Source: a virus
Virus record (IMG/VR): IMGVR_UViG_3300035698_000983
Location: 1-24,101 of that record
Length of the DNA: 24,101 nucleotides
Direction: 5' to 3' (one strand)
The translations under genes were made by a program, and so were the position numbers. Under the pieces are notes generated by a model. It was not told the DNA's origin and did not search any database. It saw only the letters and a list, made by a program, of their open reading frames with translations. This document shows, one piece after another, positions 1,652 to 24,101 of the stretch (the stretch's first letter is position 1; every line of letters starts with the position of its first letter).

Positions 1652-2629
1652 ATGGACCTGATCATAATACGACGACGGGGTCTCGGCCTCTCGACCTGCA
1701 AGGCATTGTCGAGTATACTCGGGGATATGTCGGTAACAACTGGAATCTGGAGGCACGACCGCCGCTTCCCGACCGCAGAGCAGACCTCTTCTGGGCAGGG
1801 TATGCTAGAGTACCCTACAGTACTGCGGTGGGGGTGTACCGCGAGTGTTCCCAGCACTTCTACTGGGCAGGCGCGCACTATTATCAATCAGGCCTCGGGC
1901 ATTCATCGAGTGAACAACAAGACCCAGTTCCTCCTTCACCTCCAAGAGAACCTAGCGGATCAAACAGGGCTGCTACCAGTGATCACTGGGCAGACTCAGT
2001 TTTCTGGGCAGACTCAGTTGTCTGGGGAACCAGCTCTTACGGGAGACCAACAGTGGGTGGTGCGACCAGATCACCACAGCCAAGGGAGGAACCTCACGGT
2101 ACTGTCCTACTCTCAGCTTCGTGGGTTGATGACGGACTCTCAGATGGATGGTCACTACGCGAGACCATTGGTCGAGAAGAAAGCGGAGTATCGGGTGTAC
2201 GTAGTGAACGGGAGAGTGGTGAACGTGGCTCAGAAGACACCGAGCAACCCTTCTGATGTCGCTTGGAACGTAGCTCAAGGTGGACGGTTCGATAACGTAC
2301 GATGGGGTGACTGGCCTATGAAGGTGGTTGACCTTGCTTGTCGTGTCTTCCCTCACACAGGGCTTAACCTTACAGGTATCGACGTGATGGTTGACCATGC
2401 TGACAATGCTTGGTTCATCGAGGCTAACTCTGCCCCCTCCTTACCATTCAATTCCGATGGATCGACCACGTACCGACAGAAGTGTATCGCCAAAGCGATT
2501 CACTACACACTCACAGAAAACAAGGAGATGCTTGATGTCAAAACAGGCGAAGGGTGGAGAGGATACGTTCACCCAGCAATTTACCGAGAGGCGGGAGTTA
2601 CGGAGGAAGCAAGCCAAGAAAGCGTTTGA
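1652..2629 (+). CDS. ATP-grasp domain ligase (325 aa)
   Basis: ATP-grasp enzymes join a carboxylate to an amine or thiol through an acyl-phosphate. The visible signature is a nucleotide-binding strand WVVRPD (residues 135-140) followed by a Gly/Ser loop HHSQG (141-145), a substrate segment EYRVYVV (179-185), a metal-binding aspartate in GIDVMVD (242-248) and the terminal metal motif FIEANS (255-260). The N-terminal part (LIIIRRRGLGLSTCKALSS) resembles the pre-ATP-grasp region of phage homologues. An in-frame TAG at 1631-1633 excludes an earlier start; GGAAGGA upstream of 1652 is a fair ribosome-binding site. The 3' end overlaps the next gene by 95 bases. It heads a cluster with cyclotransferase-like, amidoligase and glutamine amidotransferase genes, so it probably works with them on a peptide-like substrate. 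The substrate is unknown. Confidence 0.85.
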   Translation: MDLIIIRRRGLGLSTCKALSSILGDMSVTTGIWRHDRRFPTAEQTSSGQGMLEYPTVLRWGCTASVPSTSTGQARTIINQASGIHRVNNKTQFLLHLQENLADQTGLLPVITGQTQFSGQTQLSGEPALTGDQQWVVRPDHHSQGRNLTVLSYSQLRGLMTDSQMDGHYARPLVEKKAEYRVYVVNGRVVNVAQKTPSNPSDVAWNVAQGGRFDNVRWGDWPMKVVDLACRVFPHTGLNLTGIDVMVDHADNAWFIEANSAPSLPFNSDGSTTYRQKCIAKAIHYTLTENKEMLDVKTGEGWRGYVHPAIYREAGVTEEASQESV

Positions 2630-3020
2630 TACTAACCCTCTAGTGTTTGTCTATGGAACGCTCAAGGAAGGGTGGGGTAATAACCGCTTGCTTGACACCT
2701 CTAAGCTGATAGTCGAGACAACCAGCGATGGTCTCTTTGCTCTTGGTAACATTGGTTTTCCTTACGCCTTTCCTTCTGAGTCTGTCCCTAAGGAGTATAC
2801 GAAGCTACTCTTCCCTGTCATGGGGGAGGTATACGAAGTGGATAGTGTCGAGACCTTCATCAGTCTTGACTCACTTGAGGGTTACCCCTCCCACTATGAG
2901 CGCTCTGTCTACAACTTTAAGAGTGGACACAGCGCTTGGATGTACATTCAACCCAACTGGGAGGACGCAAACTATTGCTCCTCCTGTTCATTAAAAGAAG
3001 GAGTATGGTCATGGCCTTGA
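2535..3020 (+). CDS. Gamma-glutamylcyclotransferase-like (AIG2/GGCT fold) protein (161 aa)
   Basis: The fold's hallmark VYGTLKEG is at residues 39-46. It is followed by a Gly-rich segment and the motif GEVYEVD near 97-103. The catalytic-type glutamate is in LDSLEGYPSHYER (E115). Family members release a gamma-glutamyl amine as free amine plus 5-oxoproline, or cleave related isopeptide links. The ATG at 2535 was chosen because AAGGAG (2522-2527) precedes it at normal spacing; it lies inside the 3' end of the ATP-grasp gene. The end overlaps the amidoligase start. The likely role is trimming or editing of gamma-glutamyl or amide linkages made by the neighbouring ligases. C-terminal Cys residues (148, 151) are not typical and may be structural. 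Confidence 0.85.
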   Translation: MSKQAKGGEDTFTQQFTERRELRRKQAKKAFDTNPLVFVYGTLKEGWGNNRLLDTSKLIVETTSDGLFALGNIGFPYAFPSESVPKEYTKLLFPVMGEVYEVDSVETFISLDSLEGYPSHYERSVYNFKSGHSAWMYIQPNWEDANYCSSCSLKEGVWSWP

Positions 3021-3868
3021 CACTTGAATGGAGCGGAAGCTTCACCCGTGTGGCAACAAAACGTAAGAACAAAGTCTCTGTTGGTTTCGAGTGGGAAATC
3101 CCAGCTGAAATCCAAGAGCGTGAAGAAGAAATCTATTGTGATTGTGACACTGACGAGGACTACTGCGGTTGTTACTCTGAGTGTGAAGAATACGTTGATA
3201 TGTCTGGAGACACAGAAGACTTTATTAATACCCATGGTTTCCGTACCCACATTGAGTGTGGTGGTGTAGAGTTTGCATCCCCTGTCTTCGGTAACATCTC
3301 TACTGCTCGACGCTTTGCTACTGCTTTGAAAGAAGTATCTCTCAAGGATCATGCTTTGGGTGCGGATGTGGGGGGGTACCACTCTTGCGGTATTCACGTA
3401 CACTCAGGGTTTACAGGCTGGGCTGCTGGTAATAACGGGTATGGCATCCCTTATGATGTCCAGCGGGACTACGAGCGTGTGTCTAACATGCTGAACCGAA
3501 AGTCTTCCGCAGCGTTTGTCCTTGCGTTCTCAGGGCGAGAGAACGGTAACTCAAGTTACCGTACACAAGGTGTCTCTAGCGAGTGGGACGAGGCGGGAAA
3601 TGCTGAACCAACAGAGGACCAGCTAAAGTTTATGAGGATTATGCAAATGGTCCGACCGAATGTCTTTAATAAGGTTGGTACGATTGAGTACCGTCTGTGG
3701 GATACGGCAGAAGATCGACTTCTTCCTGCTATTGAGTTTGCTCATGCTTGCACCTCCTTTGTTACTTCTCGCAGGGGTATTCCCTTCCTGAAAGACTTTA
3801 AGGTTTGGCTTGATAAGCAAGCAGGCTACAAGATTCTGAAACAAGATGACGCATGGCGTCTGGTATAA
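3011..3868 (+). CDS. COOH-NH2 amidoligase, glutamine-synthetase-like fold, first copy (285 aa)
   Basis: Amidoligases of this family (described by Iyer, Aravind and colleagues) use ATP to join a carboxylate and an amine. Seen here: GFEWEI (25-30) as the first metal-binding strand, VEFASP (86-91), the His-rich motif HSCGIHVHSG (124-133) and GTIEYRLWD (223-231). These correspond to the Glu and His/Arg positions of the active site. The ATG at 3011 is favoured over 3005 because AAGGAG at 2998-3003 is then 7 bases away. An unusual insert at residues 39-62 is very rich in Cys, Asp and Glu (C43, C45, C52, C54, C58) and could bind a metal. It overlaps the cyclotransferase stop and is followed closely by a second amidoligase. 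Confidence 0.82.
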   Translation: MALTLEWSGSFTRVATKRKNKVSVGFEWEIPAEIQEREEEIYCDCDTDEDYCGCYSECEEYVDMSGDTEDFINTHGFRTHIECGGVEFASPVFGNISTARRFATALKEVSLKDHALGADVGGYHSCGIHVHSGFTGWAAGNNGYGIPYDVQRDYERVSNMLNRKSSAAFVLAFSGRENGNSSYRTQGVSSEWDEAGNAEPTEDQLKFMRIMQMVRPNVFNKVGTIEYRLWDTAEDRLLPAIEFAHACTSFVTSRRGIPFLKDFKVWLDKQAGYKILKQDDAWRLV

Positions 3869-3880
3869 CAGGAGAAGACA

Positions 3881-5134
3881 ATGACAATTGTAACACTAGA
3901 CCTAGGCCACTGCACTATTCAACAAGACGTTGACACGTCTGGCGGTACATTCATTGGAGGTATCCGCGCCCTGACGTTTACAAGACGTTGGTTTCAGAAG
4001 CTCTCCTTTGTAGCTGCTCTTCCTAGTAACACATGGGGTGCTCTTGCTACCTACGTTAAAGAGAATGAAGAAGCTCTGAAGGCGGACGGTGTTGATTTGG
4101 AGGACCTAGTTTACCTTCAGACTGCATCTACTGAGGAGCTAGCGCAGCCTATCATCTGTATCACCCTAGAAGAAAGTTCTTCTTCCTACTTATTTGAACC
4201 TGTGGTGAAGGATAACCCTACCTATGACTATAATTGCGTGAGTGCCCACCCTCACTTGCCTCTGAGGAGGGTGTCACCTGTTACTGTTTCGGCCCGTACT
4301 GTCTCGCAGCCCTCCGGTCAAGCTGGTGCCCGAGTTATGAACTACACCTTTCGTCCTGACTATAAGTTCATGACCTTACCTAAGGAAAAGTCTGAGTGCT
4401 ACTTCGGACTTGAGCTTGAGGTTAACTCTCGTATCCCTTGGAGCGACCTCTACCGTGTGATGACAGAGGTCGCTCCTTTTCAGGAACCCTTCATCTTTGC
4501 AAAGAGTGACGCGAGTATTTCAGGTGAGTTTAACAACTGCTATGAAATTGTCTCACACCCTATGTCACCTCGCCGGTTACGCCTTGAGTTCTCTCGTTTG
4601 TTCAAGAAAGTGGAGGCTCTCTTGACAGCCAAAGGTGTGGCATGGGGGTCTGTGTTTGATATGAACACAGAGTCTACCGGCATCCACATCCATGTTTCAA
4701 AGGGTGCTTTCACACCTCTGTCACGTACCCATAAGAAGAAGTTCATGCTCCTATGGAACAGTTCGAGTCCCACTGTCTTAGCTTTTACATCAAAGTTGGC
4801 AGGACGCAAGGTGCAGGGCAACCACTACATTAAACCAGCACCGGAGTACAATGGGCGCTCAACAGCTTGGATGTTGAGAGAGGGACGGAACATCAACCGA
4901 CACTCAGCTTGCAACGAGACAAGTCAAACAGTTGAAGTACGTGTGTTCCGTGGCCAACCTTCTATCTCTTCTGTGTTTCACGCTGTTGACACAGTGGAAG
5001 CAATGCTAAAGTACACAGAACAAATGCCTAACTCTTGCCTGAACTACCACTTCCCTGCTCACTTCACAGCTTGGCTTGGTAAGCAGAACAAGAACTCTTT
5101 TCGCCACCTTAAGGAGACTCTCAAATGTGCCTAA
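3881..5134 (+). CDS. COOH-NH2 amidoligase, second copy with N-terminal extension (417 aa)
   Basis: The C-terminal half carries the amidoligase signature: YFGLELEVN (174-182), KSDASI (208-213), YEIVSHPM (221-228), the His motif STGIHIHVS (265-273) and VEVRVFRG (351-358). The first ~160 residues form an extra domain without a recognisable motif, perhaps a substrate or partner module. The start at 3881 has AGGAG at the right distance. Sequence resemblance to the first amidoligase is limited to these motifs, so this is an old divergent pair rather than a recent duplication. The end overlaps the amidotransferase start by 10 bases (ATGTGCCTAA), which suggests coupled translation. It may add a different amino acid or ammonia to the same substrate; that is inference. 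Confidence 0.82.
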   Translation: MTIVTLDLGHCTIQQDVDTSGGTFIGGIRALTFTRRWFQKLSFVAALPSNTWGALATYVKENEEALKADGVDLEDLVYLQTASTEELAQPIICITLEESSSSYLFEPVVKDNPTYDYNCVSAHPHLPLRRVSPVTVSARTVSQPSGQAGARVMNYTFRPDYKFMTLPKEKSECYFGLELEVNSRIPWSDLYRVMTEVAPFQEPFIFAKSDASISGEFNNCYEIVSHPMSPRRLRLEFSRLFKKVEALLTAKGVAWGSVFDMNTESTGIHIHVSKGAFTPLSRTHKKKFMLLWNSSSPTVLAFTSKLAGRKVQGNHYIKPAPEYNGRSTAWMLREGRNINRHSACNETSQTVEVRVFRGQPSISSVFHAVDTVEAMLKYTEQMPNSCLNYHFPAHFTAWLGKQNKNSFRHLKETLKCA

Positions 5135-6132
5135 TAATGCTAAGAAAACCAAACGTTATCCTCGATAAGGTGAAGTTTGATACCGCTATCCTCAATAACC
5201 CTGATGGGTGGGGCCTCTCTGTTCCTGACATGGGTGGTCAACTCTATACCACACGCAGTGCGACAACAGACAAAGATGAGCTGTATGATATGGTACATGG
5301 GGAGTTCAAAGCGGACAAACTTATGCTTCACCTTCGTTACACTACAGCAGGGGACACCGTTATTCGTAACGCCCACCCTTTCCCTGTGCTCGAGCTTGGG
5401 GAGGATGGTGTTGACATGCGTATGTGCCACAACGGTACACTGTCTGCTTGGTCTCCTCACATCAAGGACACTGAAGGAGCTTGGGAATCCGATACCCGTC
5501 GCTTCGTACGTGGTTTTGTTCGACCACTCATGAAACGTATGGCTAAAGGCCATACCAGTCAGGACATTTTGACTGATCCTTTTGTTGATATGTTACTTGA
5601 CGATCAGTTGACAGCTACGTCTGTGCTCACCTTCATGGATGGTTACGGTAACTTCAGTGTCGTGAATGAGGAAGGTAACGGTGGTTTCACAGATACAGAC
5701 GGCACCTACTTCAGCAATAAATACTCACATGATCCAGAGCATCGAGTTCCTTACTCTCAACGCAAGGGGTACACCCCTGTGGGAAAGACTATTGGGACGA
5801 CGAGTACTGGTGGTCGTCCCAATACTACCACGACGACCCAGCCCAGCAAACCTGGAGAGGCTATAATCTCTACTGATTGCAACATAGCCTCCTTCATCAC
5901 TAAGTACGGTCTGACTGATGCTGATGACCTTCATCTTATGTCTGATGACACCCTCCAAATTATAGTAGAGGATGAACCGGAAGATGCCTTGCTGTTGATC
6001 AAGGAACTTCTGTACCTTCATTACTCCTCAGATAAAGCGGTGAAAACTATGGTTCTAAAAGGTAAGATAAAGGACAAACGGATTAAGTCCCTTGAAGAAA
6101 AGCTAACAGTAAAGGAAAAGAACAATGGGTAA
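5125..6132 (+). CDS. Class II glutamine amidotransferase (Ntn-hydrolase fold, 335 aa)
   Basis: The protein begins Met-Cys, so removal of Met exposes Cys2 as the N-terminal nucleophile of a class II amidotransferase. Matching active-site segments are NPDGWG (25-30), HLRYTT (69-74), NAHPF (82-86) and CHNGTL (101-106). Such domains hydrolyse glutamine and pass ammonia to a partner ligase. No synthetase domain is fused here, so the adjacent amidoligases or the ATP-grasp protein are the natural partners. The C-terminal ~100 residues after a Thr/Pro-rich linker (~225-245) are acidic and helical-looking, possibly for docking. The start overlaps the previous gene by 10 bases and the end overlaps the next by 8, so the operon is continuous. 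Confidence 0.85.
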   Translation: MCLIMLRKPNVILDKVKFDTAILNNPDGWGLSVPDMGGQLYTTRSATTDKDELYDMVHGEFKADKLMLHLRYTTAGDTVIRNAHPFPVLELGEDGVDMRMCHNGTLSAWSPHIKDTEGAWESDTRRFVRGFVRPLMKRMAKGHTSQDILTDPFVDMLLDDQLTATSVLTFMDGYGNFSVVNEEGNGGFTDTDGTYFSNKYSHDPEHRVPYSQRKGYTPVGKTIGTTSTGGRPNTTTTTQPSKPGEAIISTDCNIASFITKYGLTDADDLHLMSDDTLQIIVEDEPEDALLLIKELLYLHYSSDKAVKTMVLKGKIKDKRIKSLEEKLTVKEKNNG

Positions 6133-6760
6133 ACTCTTAGACTTCACACCCCCTACCGTTTTACCCAGTGGTATTGAGGTAGGCACCAGCCTCTATGATG
6201 ACGTCTGGTTCTCCTGTACCCCTGACCTACCTGCTCTACGGTACGCTGGACGTATCCCTGTCTTCATCTGGGATGAGATCAAGACTTACAAAGAGGAGGC
6301 AAGTCCTCTTACAAAGAGCAACTCTCTGGTTGACACCTACCTTGTTCTGACTAAGGATAAGTACACCCCGTTCCGTAACGCAGCAGACAAACCATCCACA
6401 CCTCATGACCTGTTGCTGCCTTCCAACCCTGACTGGGCGGCAGGGGTGAAGGGTCTCTCTTTTACAGGGGAGAAAAAGCAGCTTGCTGGACGCCTTCTCC
6501 ATGTGAGTCTTGAAGGTATCCAGGCCTTGGATCGGTACTACCTCAATACTGCACTACATGAACGCAAGAAGGTACCTGTTGTTATGCAGGACGCTACAAA
6601 ACCTGAACGAGTAGCGTGGATGTATACCTTACCAACCCGTAGCTTTATGCGGTATGCCCCTCACGAAGAGTCCTATGAGATGGTGCGGGGTTTTGAGCCA
6701 CAACAGTGCTCAAGCCTAAGCCAAGGGCAGTATACTAGCACATACACAAAACGTAGTTAG
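6125..6760 (+). CDS. Protein of the amidoligase operon, possibly cyclotransferase (AIG2)-like (211 aa)
   Basis: The ATG at 6125 overlaps the amidotransferase stop and has AAAGGA upstream. The C-terminal half (LAGRLLHVSLEGIQALDRYY, then HERKKVPVVM and RVAWMYTL) has the spacing of the GGCT/AIG2 fold: an entry strand, an LDxY segment in place of LDxxEG, an arginine-bearing strand and a final strand. The usual YGTL phosphate/Gly loop is not evident and the catalytic Glu position is Tyr, so if the fold is right the protein may be inactive or altered. The N-terminal half is unassigned. Operon position is the strongest argument for a role in the same pathway. It ends with TAG. Confidence 0.6.
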   Translation: MGKLLDFTPPTVLPSGIEVGTSLYDDVWFSCTPDLPALRYAGRIPVFIWDEIKTYKEEASPLTKSNSLVDTYLVLTKDKYTPFRNAADKPSTPHDLLLPSNPDWAAGVKGLSFTGEKKQLAGRLLHVSLEGIQALDRYYLNTALHERKKVPVVMQDATKPERVAWMYTLPTRSFMRYAPHEESYEMVRGFEPQQCSSLSQGQYTSTYTKRS

Positions 6761-7187: not shown

Positions 7188-8279
7188 ATGAAATACACGC
7201 GAGAGTACAAGGTGAACGGAGAGAAACGATGGCAGTTTGTATGTCCCCGTGATGTCGTAGCTGCCGGAGTTGCTAAGTCGCAGGTGTTTGATGACGGACG
7301 GATAGCTCGTTTTGAGATACCAAAGCTTATCACTCTTGTAGACCTGTATCGTAGCGGAGACATTAAGGAAGGCACTATAGGTACTCACTCCCTGATGGTG
7401 CACCTACTAAACCACTACATACGTACTGACTACTACCGTCAGTTGGCTGGCTCCTCACAGAAACAATACGAGTCTGTCTTAGGGTCATGCCTAGCCACCC
7501 CAGTAAACAGTAAGACCTTTGGTGACATCAAGGTGACAGAGGTAGACACTAAGCTATGCCGTGACTTGTACACACAGTGGACCACCGATGGTTCTGTGTC
7601 CTTGTCTAACACCAAGGCTCGTGTCTTGTCAGTACTGTTGAACTACGCAGTGAGCATTGAGTTACTCGTAAACAACCCAATGGCTAAGGTACGTAAGCTT
7701 AAGCATGAGCCTACCACCCGCATATGGACGCAAGTAGAGGTAGAGAAGTTGCTTGAGGTAGGGTACCAAGGCTTTGACCTAAGGAACATCACCCTGCTGG
7801 CTCATATGTGCTATGAGTATGCACAGAGACCTGTTGATATCTCCCGCCTTACATGGGAGCAGCTAGACTTTGGTACTAACTGTATCACCATACGTCAGAC
7901 TAAGCGTGGTACTACTGTCCACCTCCCTATTGAAGAACCACTACGTACCATGCTGCTAGAACAACAAGAAGCGTGGGACTTCCAGCCCTACGTTGTACCT
8001 CACCAGACACCAAGGGGTTCACGGTATCACGTCATGAATCGTTCAGAGATGAACACTAGTTTCAATGCCCTTAAGGATGCAGCGGGGTTAGACCCTGATC
8101 TACACCTAGGGTTACTAAGGAAAACCGCAATATCGGAGTTGGTTCAGGCTGGAGTTGACGCGGTAGGTATCATGCAAGTTACAGGGCATAAGAGTATCGC
8201 AAGCCTTAACCCCTATATGAAACACACACTGAAAGGTGCAAGCGCAGCACTCTCACAAAGGAGAAGTAATAATGATTGA
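7188..8279 (+). CDS. int: Tyrosine recombinase / phage integrase (363 aa)
   Basis: Tyrosine recombinases exchange DNA strands between phage and host attachment sites. An N-terminal arm and SAM-like core-binding domain (residues ~60-170) precede the catalytic domain. Catalytic residues visible are R214 in YAQRPVDISRL, K239 in TKRG, R311 in HLGLLRKTA, H334 in TGHKS and Y343 in NPYMKH. In the box II pattern HxLR the His position is Gly308, while a His lies two residues earlier (H306); this deviates from the usual pattern but not all members keep that His. The ribosome-binding site is weak. The last 8 bases overlap the next gene's start. Its presence suggests a temperate or formerly temperate phage. 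No attP core could be identified by eye. Confidence 0.9.
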   Translation: MKYTREYKVNGEKRWQFVCPRDVVAAGVAKSQVFDDGRIARFEIPKLITLVDLYRSGDIKEGTIGTHSLMVHLLNHYIRTDYYRQLAGSSQKQYESVLGSCLATPVNSKTFGDIKVTEVDTKLCRDLYTQWTTDGSVSLSNTKARVLSVLLNYAVSIELLVNNPMAKVRKLKHEPTTRIWTQVEVEKLLEVGYQGFDLRNITLLAHMCYEYAQRPVDISRLTWEQLDFGTNCITIRQTKRGTTVHLPIEEPLRTMLLEQQEAWDFQPYVVPHQTPRGSRYHVMNRSEMNTSFNALKDAAGLDPDLHLGLLRKTAISELVQAGVDAVGIMQVTGHKSIASLNPYMKHTLKGASAALSQRRSNND

Positions 8280-8781
8280 GTATAAAGTGGAAGTCTACTC
8301 TGACGGGAGTAAGTATTGGTTCCTCGAGGATAAGCGGCATCGTGAGGATGGCCCTGCTATTGAGTATTCTGACGGGGATAAGGAGTGGTATCTCGAGGGT
8401 GAGCTGCATCGTAATGATGGCCCTGCTGTTGAGTTGGCTAGCGGGACTAAGCAGTGGTATCTCGAGGGTAAGCGGCATCGTGAGGATGGCCCTGCTACCG
8501 AGTGGGCTGACGGGGATAAGGAGTGGTATCTCGAGGGTGAGCTGCATCGTAATGATGGCCCTGCTGTTGAGTTGGCTAGCGGGTATAAGGCGTGGTATCT
8601 CAAGGATAAGCTGCATCGTGAGGATGGCCCTGCTGTTGAGTATGCTAGCGGGACTAAGCAGTGGTATCTCGAGGGTGTCGAGTATACCGAAGAAGAACAC
8701 CGTCTTAAGACCCAAGGTAACACCTGTGAGGGTAAGGTTATCGAGGTTGACGGGGTTAAGTATAAACTTATGAAGGAGTGA
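8272..8781 (+). CDS. MORN-variant-like repeat protein, copy C (169 aa, five repeats)
   Basis: This is the longest paralogue, beginning MIEYKVEVYSDGS and holding five 23-residue units. Two alternating types are visible: one with HREDGPAxEY/EW and one with HRNDGPAVELASG. Units 2 and 4 are close to each other, as if a two-unit block had been duplicated. The tail is the same as in the other copies (EEHRLKTQGNT to LMKE). The ATG at 8272 overlaps the integrase stop and has GGAG upstream; an in-frame ATG at 8236 is rejected because the paralogues start at MIEY. More sequence variation between units than in copy B suggests an older expansion. Function is unknown. Confidence 0.85.
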   Translation: MIEYKVEVYSDGSKYWFLEDKRHREDGPAIEYSDGDKEWYLEGELHRNDGPAVELASGTKQWYLEGKRHREDGPATEWADGDKEWYLEGELHRNDGPAVELASGYKAWYLKDKLHREDGPAVEYASGTKQWYLEGVEYTEEEHRLKTQGNTCEGKVIEVDGVKYKLMKE

Positions 8782-8792
8782 AGAGATGAGTG

Positions 8793-8837
8793 ATGCACCA
8801 GAGTGTGTGCTACATATGCGGCGAGATTGGAGATTGA
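8793..8837 (+). CDS. Possible 14-aa micro-ORF with CxxC, leader to primase
   Basis: ATG 8793 opens MHQSVCYICGEIGD and stops one base before the primase ATG. A second frame opens at 8786 (18 residues, right behind the AAGGAG of the repeat gene) and ends in ATGA overlap with the primase start. Only one, or neither, can be real. The CYIC motif looks like half of a zinc ribbon, so this may be a leftover of a small zinc protein or simply a coupling peptide. Confidence 0.25.
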   Translation: MHQSVCYICGEIGD

Positions 8838-8838
8838 T

Positions 8839-11421
8839 ATGAAAGAACACACACCCCCTATCAAGACACACCGTACCTGTCCCAAGTGTGGGGCTGGGGG
8901 CAGCTACTCTGTATGGGCTAACGGGGCTGGCTACTGTCACTCCTGTAATGAGTCTGCACATGGGGACGCTACCCAAGAGAAGCAAGTTCAACTCAAGGAA
9001 CCAACACGTATGCCAACAGACCTAGTCCTAAAAGATCACCCGATGCGAGGGGTAGACGCAGACGTAGAGAAGTTCTACGGTGTTCAGACAGGTATGTCTG
9101 AGAGTGGTGACCCTGTCACCCGAGTATATCCCTACCCCCATCGACCCAAGACACGTATCCTACCTAAAGACTTCTCTAAGAACTATGGGTTTACCAACGA
9201 TCATCTCTTTGGTATGGATAAGTTTAACGCAGGTAGCTCGAAGTATCTCACGATTACTGAGGGTGAGGAGGATACACTCGCTGCCTATCAGCTTCTAGGA
9301 AAGACCTTCCCTGTCGTGTCTCTCCCCTCTGCTGGCTCAGTGAAGTCTGTCCTCCAGAACAAAGAAGCATATAACTTCATCAAAGCTTTCTCTGCTATCA
9401 TCATCGCTACTGATAACGACGAAGCAGGTAACAAGAGTGCAGAGATTCTACAACGTGCATTCCCTGGTCGCTGCTACCGTGTTAACATGTCCACTCACAA
9501 AGATGCGTCAGCTTATCTACAGGCTGGGCATGGGTCAGACTTCAAGTATGCTTGGATCAATAGGCAGAAGTACGTCCCTGATAATGTGTTCAACACCACT
9601 GATCAGTTTGAGAAGATCATCCGCGATGACAAGGGGTCTATGTATATTCCTACTGGCATCACTGACCTTGACTCCCGTTTGTTAGGGCTTATGCAAGGAC
9701 ACTTCACTGTGTTCACTGCACCAGAGGGCGTAGGCAAGCAACTACCGAACACGACCCTTATGCCTACACCTACAGGTTTCACAACTATGAGTGATCTTCG
9801 AGTGGGTGATACTGTGTTTGGAGCCGACGGTAAGGGGACAAAAGTAACCTTCGTAACCGAGACACAGAACAACGTACCATGTTATGAATTAGTTTTCTCT
9901 GATGGTACAAGCCAGGTAGCTGGTGGGCCTCACAAATGGGGAGTGTATACCACTTACGACACTTACAAGGTTAAGACAACTGACGAGATGGTAGCTGAGG
10001 GGGTAACCCGTGGCGAGGGGGTGGCTCTTTACTCTGTACCTATCTGTCAGCCGCTCGACTTACCTTATGCTGATAATCTTATAGACCCTTACACATTGGG
10101 TTTGTGGCTTGGTGACGGACACTCTTACAGCGCGAACATCTCTGTTGGTTACGACGATGCCGAGCAGTTCGAGGCGATGTTTGATGTCATTAATAAGAAT
10201 GAGTACGAGACCTGTATCTCTTATCGAGTATCAACTTTAACACACGAACAACTGAGGGTCAGTGGTCTGCTGAAGAACAAGCACATCCCTGAGAAGTATC
10301 TTCGTGCATCCATTGAGCAACGTACAGAGCTATTACAAGGTATGATGGACAGTGTCGGCAGTGTGACCGGACGTGGTTGTGAGTTCTACACATCCTCAAA
10401 TATACTCCTCGAAGACTTTCTTGACCTAGCGCGGGGCCTTGGTTACAAGTGTCGGTCACGAGCTAAGCAGTCCAAATTATATGGTGTACCTAAGAAGATG
10501 GCGTACACTGTGTGGTTCCTCAACCACTCTGACAAGGAGGTTTTTAAGTACGAACGAAAACAGAACAAGGTTGTTAATTGTGAGACGTACCGAGCTACAC
10601 GTAAGACTATTCGTAGCATTACTCCTGTAGCCTCTGTGCCTTCAAGGTGTATCACAGTGGATAATGAGGATCACCTATATCTCTGTGGGGATGCTTACAC
10701 TGTTACACACAACACAGAATTGATGCGTAAGGTGGAATATAACCTGCTTGCTAACCACCCTACTGTGCCTATTGCGATCATGCACCTTGAGGAAACAAAG
10801 AAGCGGAGCCTACTTGGCCTTGCCTCCTACTTCCTCCATAAGGATGTCACTCTTCAAGATACTAAGACAATCACTAACGACAATGGCGACGAAGAGATTG
10901 TGTACTTACCAAGCTACAAGGGAACTTCTGAGGATGAAGTACTCCAAGCTATCAAAGAGTTTACTGATCGTGAGAACTTCTACCAGTTTACTCTAAGTGT
11001 AGACGACGACCCGATGTCTATCCTCGAGCAGATCAGATACTTCGCTGAGGTGTGTGGTTGTCGCTATGTCTTCTTCGAACCTATCCAAGACCTAGCATAC
11101 TCTCGTCAGAACGATGCGAGTATTGAGGGTTGGCTAAGCGAGCTTTCTACTAAGCTGTCTCGTCTTGCTACTGAGCTAGGGGTTGGCATTGTATCCATTG
11201 CTCACGAGAATGACGATGGGCAAATACGTGACTGTCGTATGATTGGTAAACGAGCCAGCGTTGTTATCAAGCTAAGCCGCGATAAGCTAGCCACCGACGA
11301 TGACACCCGCAACACTACTAATCTTGTGGTCGATAAGAACAGACCCGTTGGTCCAACAGGGTTCGGCGGTATGCTTGAGTTTGACCCATCGAGCTTTACC
11401 CTGGGTGAGAAATCTTTTTAG
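8839..11421 (+). CDS. DNA primase-helicase (T7 gp4-like) interrupted by an intein (860 aa precursor)
   Basis: The protein makes RNA primers and unwinds the fork. Domains in order: a Cys4 zinc ribbon (C14, C17, C33, C36); a TOPRIM primase core with TITEGEED (138-145) and IIIATDNDEAG (187-197); and a RecA-like hexameric helicase whose P-loop is APEGVGK (294-300) continued by Thr626 after the intein. Motifs after the intein include the Walker B-like strand YVFFEPIQDLAY and the IVSIAHEND segment. Without the intein the length is 535 aa, close to T7 gp4. The ATG at 8839 has GGAG upstream and the zinc ribbon follows at once; an in-frame GTG at 8803 is less likely. It lies between repeat copies C and D and ahead of the polymerase. 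It ends with TAG. Confidence 0.92.
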   Translation: MKEHTPPIKTHRTCPKCGAGGSYSVWANGAGYCHSCNESAHGDATQEKQVQLKEPTRMPTDLVLKDHPMRGVDADVEKFYGVQTGMSESGDPVTRVYPYPHRPKTRILPKDFSKNYGFTNDHLFGMDKFNAGSSKYLTITEGEEDTLAAYQLLGKTFPVVSLPSAGSVKSVLQNKEAYNFIKAFSAIIIATDNDEAGNKSAEILQRAFPGRCYRVNMSTHKDASAYLQAGHGSDFKYAWINRQKYVPDNVFNTTDQFEKIIRDDKGSMYIPTGITDLDSRLLGLMQGHFTVFTAPEGVGKQLPNTTLMPTPTGFTTMSDLRVGDTVFGADGKGTKVTFVTETQNNVPCYELVFSDGTSQVAGGPHKWGVYTTYDTYKVKTTDEMVAEGVTRGEGVALYSVPICQPLDLPYADNLIDPYTLGLWLGDGHSYSANISVGYDDAEQFEAMFDVINKNEYETCISYRVSTLTHEQLRVSGLLKNKHIPEKYLRASIEQRTELLQGMMDSVGSVTGRGCEFYTSSNILLEDFLDLARGLGYKCRSRAKQSKLYGVPKKMAYTVWFLNHSDKEVFKYERKQNKVVNCETYRATRKTIRSITPVASVPSRCITVDNEDHLYLCGDAYTVTHNTELMRKVEYNLLANHPTVPIAIMHLEETKKRSLLGLASYFLHKDVTLQDTKTITNDNGDEEIVYLPSYKGTSEDEVLQAIKEFTDRENFYQFTLSVDDDPMSILEQIRYFAEVCGCRYVFFEPIQDLAYSRQNDASIEGWLSELSTKLSRLATELGVGIVSIAHENDDGQIRDCRMIGKRASVVIKLSRDKLATDDDTRNTTNLVVDKNRPVGPTGFGGMLEFDPSSFTLGEKSF
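9739..10713 (+). mobile_element. Class 3-type intein in the helicase P-loop, with a probably decayed LAGLIDADG endonuclease (325 aa)
   Basis: The insertion splits the Walker A motif between Lys and Thr; removing it restores GVGKTELM. Block A (LPNTTLMPTPTGFTTMSDL) is clear, but residue 1 is Gln, not Cys or Ser. The non-contiguous WCT set of class 3 inteins is present: W67 two residues after block B H65, C304 at the block F position normally Asp (RCITV), and T323 just before the terminal H324-N325. The +1 residue is Thr. Endonuclease block C is LGLWLGDGH (D126). Block E reads LLQGMMDSVGSV, with Val206 where the catalytic Asp is expected. Splicing is probably active because the host protein is essential; the endonuclease may be dead or nicking only. 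Confidence 0.88.
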
Positions 11422-11487: not shown

Positions 11488-11721
11488 ATGATTGAGTATA
11501 AAGTAAAAGTCTACCTTGACGGGAATAAGTCTTGGTATCTCGAGGGTAAGCGGCATCGTGAGGATGGCCCTGCTATTGAGTATTCTGACGGGATTAAGCA
11601 GTGGTATCTCGAGGGTGTCAAGTACACCGAAGAAGAACACCGGATTAAGACCCAAGGTAACACCTGTGAGGGTAAGTTTATCGAGGTTGACGGTGTTAAG
11701 TACAAGCTTATGAAGGAGTGA
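11488..11721 (+). CDS. MORN-variant-like repeat protein, copy D (77 aa, one repeat)
   Basis: This is the shortest paralogue: MIEYKVKVYLDGNKSWYLEG, a single HREDGPAIEYSDG unit and the common tail to LMKE. The ATG at 11488 has AGGAG upstream. Its leading 30 or so bases closely match those of copy C. It sits in a 300-base gap between primase-helicase and polymerase genes that are normally close together, so it looks inserted or retained as a cassette. Its terminal AAGGAG serves the next gene at 11726. It may be the basal form from which the longer copies grew, or the product of repeat loss. Confidence 0.85.
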   Translation: MIEYKVKVYLDGNKSWYLEGKRHREDGPAIEYSDGIKQWYLEGVKYTEEEHRIKTQGNTCEGKFIEVDGVKYKLMKE

Positions 11722-11971: not shown

Positions 11972-13903
11972 ATGCTTACAGTCATATCGGATTGCGAAAC
12001 CGATGGGTTAGACCCAGACAATCTGTGGTGTGTGGTCAATAAAGAACTAGGGGAGAAGTCTTACAAGGCGTGGGATGTTACCTCAGGGTATGAAACCTTT
12101 ATTGACTACGCTAAGACAGTTGACCGCTGGGTATTTCACAACGGTATAAGCTATGATGGTCCCGTGATAAACAAACTACTCGGGTCCACCGTCATTGATC
12201 CATTCAAAATCTGTGATACCTTTGTTGTGTCTCGCCTTGTTAATTACACAGGGTACAACGGGCATGGGCTGGATGAGATTGGTATCTCTCTTGGACAACC
12301 CAAGACAGTGTTCAACGACTGGGAGAAGTATACTCCTGAGATGTTGTCCTACTGTGAGGATGATGTAGACCTAGGCACAAAGGTCTATAAGAAGTACGAG
12401 AGGTACATCGACGACCCTGCTTGGGCTATGTCAATGGAGACAGAGCACCACGCAGCTATGCTCTGTAAGAAGATGCATGACAATGGGTTTAAGTTTAACC
12501 TTCAGCTTGCCAATGAAGTCCTCCCACAGATACAGGACAGGCTTGATGAGCTGGAGGCAGAGATGCAACGTGCCTTCCCACCTGAACTTAAGGAGGTCCA
12601 CCGTATCCAGTACCGTATAAAAGCTGACGGTGAGCTTTACTCCACCACTGCTAACGCTATGCTTAACTTTCCTAAGACGGAGATAGACGGTGATGAGTTG
12701 GTGTGCTTCAACTGGGTATCGTTTAACCCTGGCTCACACCAGAACCGTATCGACAAACTATGGGAAGCAGGGTGGGACCCTACTGAGAAGTCTAAGTCGC
12801 ACTACAAGTTCTCTCAACGTGGTGCGGTAGGTGAGAAGTGGGGTAAGAAGACACTTACTCGAGAGCTGTACGATACTAAGAAGGAGGAGTTCGGACACTA
12901 CGGCTGGACAGTGACCGACGAGAACCTCGACACACTGCCTAGCTCAGCCCCTCAGGGTGCTCGTGATCTTGCTGAGTGGTTGTGCCTCAACGGGAGACTA
13001 AAACCCTTAGAGGAGCGTATCAGGGAGTGTGAGAGTGACGGACGTATCCGTACAAACTTCTGGCACATCGGAGCATGGACCCATCGTATGTCTCACTCCT
13101 CACCTAACCTAGCTAATATCTCCTCACCATTCCACGGTGAAGCAGTGACTGCTGTTGACCTTGTTAAGGAGAGGTTTGATGGTAAGCTAAGGGCCATGTT
13201 TACAGTTGATGAGGGTAACTACTTGGTAGGTACAGACGCAGAGTCTATCCAGCTGCGTATCCTTGCTCACTATCTTAAGAACGATGAGTACGTTAAGGCT
13301 ATTACAGAAGGAAATAAGGAGGATGGAACAGACATCCACAACGTTAACCGCAGAGCACTCGGACTTGACCACCTTACTCGTGACGATGCTAAAACTTATA
13401 TCTACGCCTATTTACTCGGTGCAGGAGCAGGAAAAGTCGCTCGCATCCTTAGATGTTCAGTACCAGTGGCAAAGAAAGCGATGGAAACTTTCACTGACCG
13501 TACCACGGGACTTAGGAAACTCAAGTCTGGACTTATCAAGCGAGACGCAGCCAGGGGTTACTTTGAAGGTTTGGATGGAAGAAAAGTAATCTGTCCTTCA
13601 GAGTACTTGATGCTTGCGGGGTACTTGCAGAACGGTGAGGCGATCGTTATCAAGAGGTCTAACTGGTTGTGGGATAGATAGTGTACCGAAGAAGGTTTAA
13701 ACTTTAGGCAAAGCAACGTAGTACACGATGAATTTCAAACAGAGGTATGTGGTACTTACGAGGAAGCCCAGCGCGTAGGGGAGTTACAGTGTAAGGCTCT
13801 TGCAGTTACAGGAGAGGAGCTGGGGCTGCTCTGTCCTCTCTCAGGGGAGACTAAGATCGGAAGCCCTTTAGATGGGACAAACAACTGGCTTGGGACTCAC
13901 TAA
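11972..13903 (+). CDS. Family A DNA polymerase (T7-like) with an in-frame TAG at codon 570
   Basis: This is the phage replicative polymerase. The 3'-5' exonuclease domain has D7xE9 (SDCETD), HNG with D62 (FHNGISYDGP) and YCEDD (Y127, D131). Motif A is VGTDAESIQLR with D422. Motif B is RDDAKTYIYAYLLGAG with K474 and Tyr478 at the position of T7 Tyr526. The frame then meets TAG at 13679-13681, after NWLWDR. The same frame continues without a shift through CTEEGLNFRQS to motif C VVHDEFQTEV (H585, D586, E587) and ends at TAA 13901-13903 in NNWLGTH, a normal family C terminus. Without readthrough the 569-residue product lacks motif C and could not polymerise. TAG is a normal stop for at least six other genes here, so this is either site-specific readthrough, a nonsense mutation or a sequencing error. 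Confidence 0.88.
13679..13681 (+). other. In-frame amber codon inside the polymerase
   Basis: TAG lies between palm motifs B and C in the context GAT-AGA-TAG-TGT. The downstream frame is preserved and matches the family, so exactly one codon is affected. No suppressor tRNA with a CTA anticodon was found in the window; the single tRNA reads AGA. Confidence 0.85.
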
Positions 13904-13906
13904 TCC

Positions 13907-13935
13907 TTGACAAACAGCAGTAACTACGGTATAAC
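13907..13935 (+). promoter_or_regulatory. Sigma70-type promoter for endonuclease VII gene
   Basis: A perfect -35 TTGACA (13907-13912), an exact 17-base spacer and -10 TATAAC (13930-13935, 5 of 6). It starts 4 bases after the polymerase stop and 25 bases before the endonuclease ATG, in a true intergenic gap. Confidence 0.75.
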
Positions 13936-13960
13936 TACTTTCATGAAACAGGAGGATATT

Positions 13961-14380
13961 ATGAAGGTATGTCGTAAGTGTAACAAGGAGCAACCCTTAG
14001 AGAACTACTACAAGAGTAAAGCAGGAACAAGAGACGGACGAAGACACGAGTGTAAAGTCTGCTGGAACAGTAGCTCACTAAACTACTACTTCGATAATAA
14101 AGAAAGGATAGTTGAGTCTCGCAAAGACTATCACTACAGGAGTACGTACGGTATAACCCGTTCTGAGTTTGAAAAGATGGTTGAGGAGGGATCAGGCTGC
14201 GAGGTCTGTGGGTCTGAACCTGTTGTGCTGGACCACTGCCACGACTCAGGAACTCTACGAGGTCTACTGTGTAACCAATGTAACCAGGCTTTAGGCTTAC
14301 TAAAGGATGATACAAAACGTATAGTAAAGCTGTCAGAGTACATGCTCAAACACCTACACCTAAAGAAACACACACACTAA
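13961..14380 (+). CDS. Recombination endonuclease VII-like HNH nuclease (139 aa)
   Basis: The C-terminal core CEVCGSEPVVLDHCHDSG plus LRGLLCNQCNQALGLLKDD is the endonuclease VII/HNH signature: two CxxC zinc pairs around a DHCH catalytic segment and the family-typical LLCNxCNxALG. An N-terminal zinc ribbon (CRKC and CKVC) precedes it. Family members cleave branched DNA such as Holliday junctions, as T4 gp49 does during packaging. Phages also carry related HNH genes as free-standing homing enzymes, which remains possible given its location right after the polymerase. The ATG at 13961 has a strong AGGAGG 5 bases upstream; an in-frame TTG at 13907 is the promoter -35 and is rejected. Confidence 0.88.
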   Translation: MKVCRKCNKEQPLENYYKSKAGTRDGRRHECKVCWNSSSLNYYFDNKERIVESRKDYHYRSTYGITRSEFEKMVEEGSGCEVCGSEPVVLDHCHDSGTLRGLLCNQCNQALGLLKDDTKRIVKLSEYMLKHLHLKKHTH

Positions 14381-22511: not shown

Positions 22512-22587
22512 GGATGTATAGTGAAACTGGATATAACGTGAGATTTCTACTCTTGAGATCGGGGTTCGAGTCCTCGTACATCCTCCA
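22512..22587 (+). tRNA. tRNA-Arg (anticodon UCU), CCA encoded
   Basis: The acceptor stem GGATGTA/TACATCC pairs perfectly, followed by discriminator T and an encoded CCA. The T-arm CGGGG-TTCGAGT-CCTCG pairs with one G-T. The anticodon arm TGAGA/TCTTG holds loop TTTCTAC, giving anticodon TCT with A37, for AGA codons. The D-arm GTGA/TAAC contains one G-A mismatch and an otherwise normal GG-bearing loop. The variable loop is 4 bases. It is likely supplied to help decode AGA in phage genes. Confidence 0.85.
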
Positions 22588-23112: not shown

Positions 23113-23324
23113 GTGTCGTTGCAGTGACAACTTTCAAGGGGAGAGCCTTCGGGGTCTACGTCTCGGAGAAGAAGGCTAAAGCTGCTGTCACTACCTTTTT
23201 ACTCGAGGGTCTCCACCTCTCAGAGAAAGAAGCAGAAGTGTACATGGGGGACTTCACCTTCACAGAAGTGTACTTCCAGGAGTACGAAGACTTGAAGCAC
23301 CGTATGGAAGGACTAGAGAAGTAA
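23109..23324 (+). CDS. Protein of unknown function (71 aa)
   Basis: The likely start is GTG 23109 in a GTGA overlap with DUF3310, with AAGGAG 9 bases upstream. The sequence SVVAVTTFKGRAFGVYVSEK, then KEAEVYMGDFTFTEVYFQEY, gives strand, helix and strand with an acidic helical end. No family is recognised. Its stop overlaps the PhoH start (TAATG). Confidence 0.6.
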   Translation: MSVVAVTTFKGRAFGVYVSEKKAKAAVTTFLLEGLHLSEKEAEVYMGDFTFTEVYFQEYEDLKHRMEGLEK

Positions 23325-24101
23325 TGACCCAGCAGAAAGCAAAGCCAAAGCTTACCCGAGTAACCACTAAGCATGACGTAGCAAAGAAAGCTATCTCGAT
23401 CACACCTAAGACAGAGAACCAAGGAGAATACATCAAAGCTCTTACGTCTTCTAATCAAGTGGTAGTCTTCGGGCCTTCAGGCTGTAAGTCAGGAGACACA
23501 GTCGTTCACTACCGCAGAGGCAAACGTAACAGCTCCCGTAGTTTGCCTCTCAAAGACTTTGTATCCAAGTACAACGGAGGAACAGACCACGTTGGCCGTA
23601 AGTGGGATAGAAGTATTGACACCTACGTGCAGTCCTATAACGAGGAAACTAACCGTGTGTTTTATAACAAGGTAGAAGGAGCTTGGGAGACAGGTTTTAA
23701 ACACAGTGTAAAAATCACCACTTTTACACAAGGTGACGTAAAGATCACTCTTGATGACAGTGTCCTCCTTCATGATGGAACCTTTAAGAAAGCCGGAGAA
23801 GTTGTTGTTGGTGATTGGCTTCTTTGTAAAGGGGATATGAACAGCGTATCCAAAGGCTCCTCTTTAAAGAAAATAACAAAGAAAAAGCGCAGCACTATTG
23901 AGGGTCTAAAGTATTACTCAGGGGGCTGGAACAAGTCTGTTGTCTCAAATGGTATTCGTTATGATTACCGTAGGAACCACAAAGCTCGTCTTGTACTAGA
24001 GGCGGACGCAAACGGTGTGTCCCTTGATGAGTACGTGCTGGCTCTACGGACAGACCCAGAGCATACCTATAATATACTTCTTCAAGATGGAGTAGAAGTA
24101 C
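23324..24101 (+). CDS. phoH: PhoH-like P-loop ATPase interrupted by an intein (3' truncated by window edge)
   Basis: Residues 1-53 are the host part: a basic N terminus, then NQGEYIKALTSSNQVVVFGP plus SG, which is the start of the PhoH P-loop (GPSGTGKT in homologues). The sequence then enters an intein at Cys54, so only the first four residues of the P-loop are seen. PhoH proteins are phosphate-starvation-linked ATPases and putative RNA helicases, frequent in marine phages. ATG 23324 overlaps the upstream stop. The identification as PhoH rests on the short EYIKAL...VVFGPSG region and on phage gene content, so another P-loop ATPase is not excluded. Confidence 0.7.
   Translation, partial: MTQQKAKPKLTRVTTKHDVAKKAISITPKTENQGEYIKALTSSNQVVVFGPSGCKSGDTVVHYRRGKRNSSRSLPLKDFVSKYNGGTDHVGRKWDRSIDTYVQSYNEETNRVFYNKVEGAWETGFKHSVKITTFTQGDVKITLDDSVLLHDGTFKKAGEVVVGDWLLCKGDMNSVSKGSSLKKITKKKRSTIEGLKYYSGGWNKSVVSNGIRYDYRRNHKARLVLEADANGVSLDEYVLALRTDPEHTYNILLQDGVEV
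23483..24101 (+). mobile_element. Class 1-type intein in the PhoH P-loop (3' truncated)
   Basis: The intein begins with Cys (CKSGDTVVHYRRGKR), a standard block A, between Gly of GPSG and the expected TGKT. Block B is KITLDDSVLLHDG at residues ~87-99, followed by KAGEVVVGDWLLC. The usual TxxH has Asp92 in place of His (T89-L-D-D92). The portion in view (about 206 residues) then becomes Lys-rich (SLKKITKKKRSTIEGLKYYS), which could open an endonuclease domain. The C-terminal blocks lie outside the window. Confidence 0.75.

Follow-up and report, generated by a model that had tools for sequence, protein, structure and literature searches.

In-frame stop codons in bacteria are attributed to four sources, namely annotation artefacts, sequencing errors, pseudogenes and stops in functional genes; it has been argued that such stops are widespread at dN/dS below 1 and that a low dN/dS can go with function (PMC7918605). 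In phages, TAG recoding is described in crAss-like and other phages carrying suppressor tRNAs, with phAss-1 described in that source as having in-frame TAG in 41 ORFs (PMC10607447). Phage DNA polymerase genes are also interrupted by group I introns, for example in Pf-WMP3 and SPO1 (PMC3428280), and exonuclease and polymerase are separate genes in Cobavirinae CRP-5 and ICBM2 and in phage T5S1-k141_653015. Here we compare with these systems a single in-frame TAG in the DNA polymerase gene of a viral contig. We use the term window for the whole stretch of DNA analyzed, which is a complete IMG/VR record, a linear virus contig of 24,101 bases without end repeats.

The frame of a family A (T7-type) DNA polymerase with 3'-5' exonuclease and polymerase domains occupies positions 11972 to 13903 of the plus strand and comprises 643 codons, broken by a TAG at 13679-13681. 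Counting the ATG at 11972 as residue 1, this TAG is codon 570. The open reading frame up to the TAG (11972-13681) encodes 569 amino acids and is followed by a tail of 73 open codons (13682-13900), homologous to the polymerase C terminus, before a TAA at 13901-13903. Profile matches (PF00476, E 2.2e-26; phrog_17, E 4.1e-94) and a match to T7 polymerase (E 1.8e-56) uphold the enzyme identity and motif positions given in the initial annotation, with exonuclease and polymerase domains and motifs A, B and C all encoded in the DNA frame. The motif B region (RDDAKTYIYAYLLGAG) lies uninterrupted at 13379-13426. Motif C (VVHDEFQTEV, 13718-13747), which carries the catalytic Asp and would be lost if translation ended at the TAG, aligns with WVHDEIQV of T7 polymerase. 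The tail alone matches the PHROG DNA polymerase family phrog_15971 (E 9.9e-5) and aligns without gaps through the C terminus to the nearest relative, L002 (92% identical). Together with motif C, these matches indicate that the open tail is not a chance occurrence. Two earlier claims, that the TAG falls between motifs B and C and that the frame continues past it through motif C to a normal C terminus, are thus borne out by the frame, the T7 alignment and the homology of the tail.

Codon 570 is TGG (Trp) in all 15 close relatives, loci in viral contigs with 66-92% protein identity to the window that were compared by DNA alignment. A wider survey seeded from motif C gave 133 distinct loci. Homologues counted as intact when the polymerase frame stayed open over 480 or more codons before motif C, and none of the 97 intact polymerases has a stop at site 570 in the alignment. 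The residues found there are Gln (31), Lys (22), Trp (10) and others, making this a fairly variable column; just 18% of columns vary more. Comparing this codon among relatives was suggested in the initial annotation, and the outcome makes an isolated lesion or an error more likely than programmed readthrough. Searches for near-identical records carrying the site, using a 35-base pattern left free at one base and a neighbouring 27-base stretch, returned no match, and the records nearest to the window were possibly outside this search. Megablast against phage records returned no match, and no prophage relative or host was found in bacterial and archaeal genomes.

In nine loci, including the window itself (L001), a stop lies in the 480 codons preceding motif C. 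Three of these (L166, L179 and L222) show a frame change inside the gene and another three (L007, L008 and L190) contain an inserted sequence recognized by Rfam as a group I intron; the remaining two are L185, to which no cause was assigned, and L091, which is not a polymerase. The TAG of the window is the sole clear nonsense codon in the surveyed set. Of the 105 polymerase loci in viral contigs that could be assessed, three besides the window (L166, L179 and L222) show simple frame breaks (about 3%), indicating that broken frames are a background event in such assemblies.

Selection on the gene was estimated as dN/dS, with post-TAG values computed over 66 codons against the two nearest relatives. 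The values were 0.071 for the whole gene and 0.067 after the TAG versus L002, and 0.091 and 0.047, respectively, versus L003; whole-gene values among uninterrupted relatives range from 0.07 to 0.12. Since dN/dS is as low after the TAG as elsewhere, the tail was normally constrained over almost the whole divergence. That is no proof of present-day translation, as a mutation of recent origin would not register in dN/dS. Changes assigned to the window lineage comprise 29 synonymous, 19 nonsynonymous and one nonsense change, compared to 17 synonymous and 19 nonsynonymous changes in L002, showing no general relaxation. Gene decay was considered and rejected, with a dN/dS of about 0.07, a single lesion and none elsewhere. 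The sole hint of decay is a pair of substitutions, M560I and A563S (codons 560 to 563, window 13649-13660), ten and seven codons before the TAG, at positions where Met560 and Ala563 are each conserved in 95 of the 97 homologues. As both substitutions are mild and leave motif C intact, we do not read them as decay.

With a TAG that no relative shares in a gene intact on both sides, we infer a lesion or an error rather than a codon in use. The locus is best accounted for, with a probability of roughly 0.85, by one isolated and recent G to A change from TGG to TAG that no relative shares, which is either a genuine nonsense mutation or an error in the consensus. The two forms carry about equal weight and could be separated only with reads. 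In addition to the unshared TAG and intact flanks, the absence of another lesion, of a suppressor tRNA and of an RNA fold better than shuffles supports a one-off change. Like ordinary nonsense mutations and sequencing errors (PMC7918605), the window has a single, unshared in-frame stop with flanks under purifying selection; it differs in that the stop falls in an essential viral replication gene. The polymerase is a member of a known family, and lesions like this stop are ordinary. The gene lineage was functional until very recently, and one G to A change in a single phage contig assembled from metagenomic data may then have turned TGG into TAG. Should the codon be genuine and not suppressed, translation would end after residue 569, keeping the exonuclease domain and fingers, and the truncated product, missing motif C, should have no polymerase activity. 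Some observations speak against a one-off change. In the dominant genotype, a nonsense codon is not expected in a gene essential for replication, and errors in a consensus occur rarely. M560I and A563S lie just upstream, and a lone error leaves them unexplained. The variability of site 570 and the prevalence of Gln there also count against this reading, as they imply that the polymerase would probably function if the stop were suppressed.

The main rival explanation is suppression, in which a UAG-reading tRNA from the host or from a portion of the phage genome absent from the record would yield full-length polymerase and the TAG would be tolerated. We consider suppression unlikely. It fits the purifying selection on either side of the TAG, the variable site with Gln, a common amber-suppressor residue, as its commonest residue (31 of 97), and the argued wide occurrence of bacterial in-frame stops with dN/dS below 1 (PMC7918605). 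Since the record is a linear 24.1 kb fragment, a suppressor tRNA could also lie outside it. On the other hand, ARAGORN and Rfam identified no CTA-anticodon tRNA in this fragment, nor was one present in the records of 13 relatives. The only tRNA of the window is a tRNA-Arg with anticodon TCT (22512-22587, plus strand), which is not an amber suppressor; the 13 relatives' records scanned contain no tRNA of any kind, so this tRNA-Arg is absent from all of them. Stop usage is also unfavorable to suppression: the 34 window genes end with TAA (16), TGA (12) or TAG (6), and set against these six TAG terminators is one in-frame TAG, that of the polymerase. Finally, no relative has TAG at site 570, and a stop that is unshared gives no support for long-term use. 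Suppression by the host is a low-probability reading that has gained no positive support. A stricter version, in which the phage relies on UAG decoding by its host and makes full-length polymerase only where UAG is suppressed, seems improbable.

Global reassignment of TAG, as in TAG-recoding phages, was rejected. These phages resemble the window in having an in-frame TAG in a phage gene (PMC10607447), but they have it in many genes, whereas the window has one such codon, uses TAG as a terminator and has no suppressor tRNA that we could find. Translated comparison with the ORFs of relatives revealed no in-frame stop in the other window genes with homologues, and we take the other stops listed in this comparison to be in spurious frames or just 5' of start codons. 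The earlier argument that TAG serves as a true stop elsewhere, making global reassignment unlikely, holds with six TAG-ended genes and one in-frame TAG.

Programmed readthrough would make the TAG a leaky stop, giving a short exonuclease-only product and a little full-length polymerase in a regulated ratio. The exonuclease domain is indeed retained in the truncated product, and in Cobavirinae CRP-5, ICBM2 and T5S1 the exonuclease and the polymerase come from different genes. However, the stop is conserved in no relative, and four folds of the RNA around and after the TAG were no better than shuffles (z from +0.71 to -1.13). The base directly 3' of the TAG is T, which is not a known leaky context in bacterial termination, so neither a stimulatory context nor an RNA structure was found. 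Moreover, those relatives are split at about residue 300 between domains and not within the palm. We therefore regard programmed readthrough as very unlikely. The initial annotation had listed readthrough, a suppressor tRNA, a defective genome and an error without ranking them; the codons of relatives now favor a lesion or error from this list and disfavor programmed readthrough.

Two further explanations have almost no standing. A two-piece polymerase, in which residues 1-569 and a motif C fragment are made apart and then assemble, has a precedent in the split exonuclease and polymerase genes of Cobavirinae, but no in-frame ATG, GTG or TTG occurs between the TAG and the TAA and the palm would be cut between motifs B and C. 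The absent start codon makes a separate C-terminal product unlikely. CRP-5, ICBM2 and T5S1-k141_653015 are like the window in having a related family A polymerase in two reading frames, yet their break lies near residue 300, between the domains, with overlapping or separate genes, while the window has a stop inside the palm and no restart, its tail lacking a start codon of its own.

It is just as hard to credit that the TAG is part of an intervening sequence, as the remnant or edge of a group I intron or intein. Group I introns (RF00028) were detected by Rfam in the polymerase genes of L007 (3034-3273), L008 (6385-6639), L009 (2282-2536) and L190 (11651-12010, minus strand). As in Pf-WMP3 and SPO1 (PMC3428280), the same gene is thus interrupted in L007, L008 and L009, close relatives of the window. 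Their intron site is motif B (window 13400-13413), about 270 bases upstream of the TAG, whereas the window gene is intron-free: gap-free alignment shows no insertion at this site or at the TAG, contradicting an intron or intein there, and Rfam gave no intron match in the window even with a relaxed threshold. Neither the group I intron of relatives nor the gene splitting of Cobavirinae explains the TAG. Identity between the window and intron-bearing relatives falls from 84-86% before the intron site to 73-76% after it, a pattern that co-conversion might leave.

A range of other features was observed in the window. An endonuclease VII / HNH gene (13907-14380, plus strand, likely start ATG at 13961) adjoins the polymerase, as do its homologues in the relatives G011 and G012. 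The primase/helicase (8836-11421) contains an intein-like insert (9738-10710) at its Walker A motif (GVGK|QLPNTT ... VTHN|T); this insert is common to G007 and G012, absent in G004, G005 and G009, and scores just under the cut-off for Pfam Hom_end. The gene at 23324-24101 is truncated where the contig ends and seems to encode a second P-loop protein with an intein (GPSGC|KSGDTVVHY); relatives match only its first 60 or so residues. Four copies of a small protein family (2-250, 863-1276, 8236-8781 and 11488-11721) have repeats like HREDGPAIEYSDGDKSWYLEGE in variable number and a constant C terminus, with a weak match to DUF6745. A cluster at 1652-6760, conserved in G012 and G013, encodes an ATP-grasp ligase, an AIG2-like gamma-glutamyl cyclotransferase (a second one is weak), a class II glutamine amidotransferase and two further unassigned proteins of amidoligase-like appearance, and resembles a peptide-modification island. 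The gene at 255-644 matches the S-adenosylmethionine lyase family (PF23780, E 1.4e-6) and is a possible anti-restriction gene. A tyrosine integrase (7188-8279), 82% identical to its G012 homologue, adjoins the replication genes and suggests a temperate phage.

If a one-off change is the right reading, the main lesson is one of caution: when a metagenome contig shows one premature stop, its relatives should be consulted before any proposal of recoding. Were the TAG fixed and suppressed, replication of this phage would be conditional on amber decoding by its host. Suppression by the host, if true, would tie phage replication to those hosts or conditions in which amber suppression occurs.
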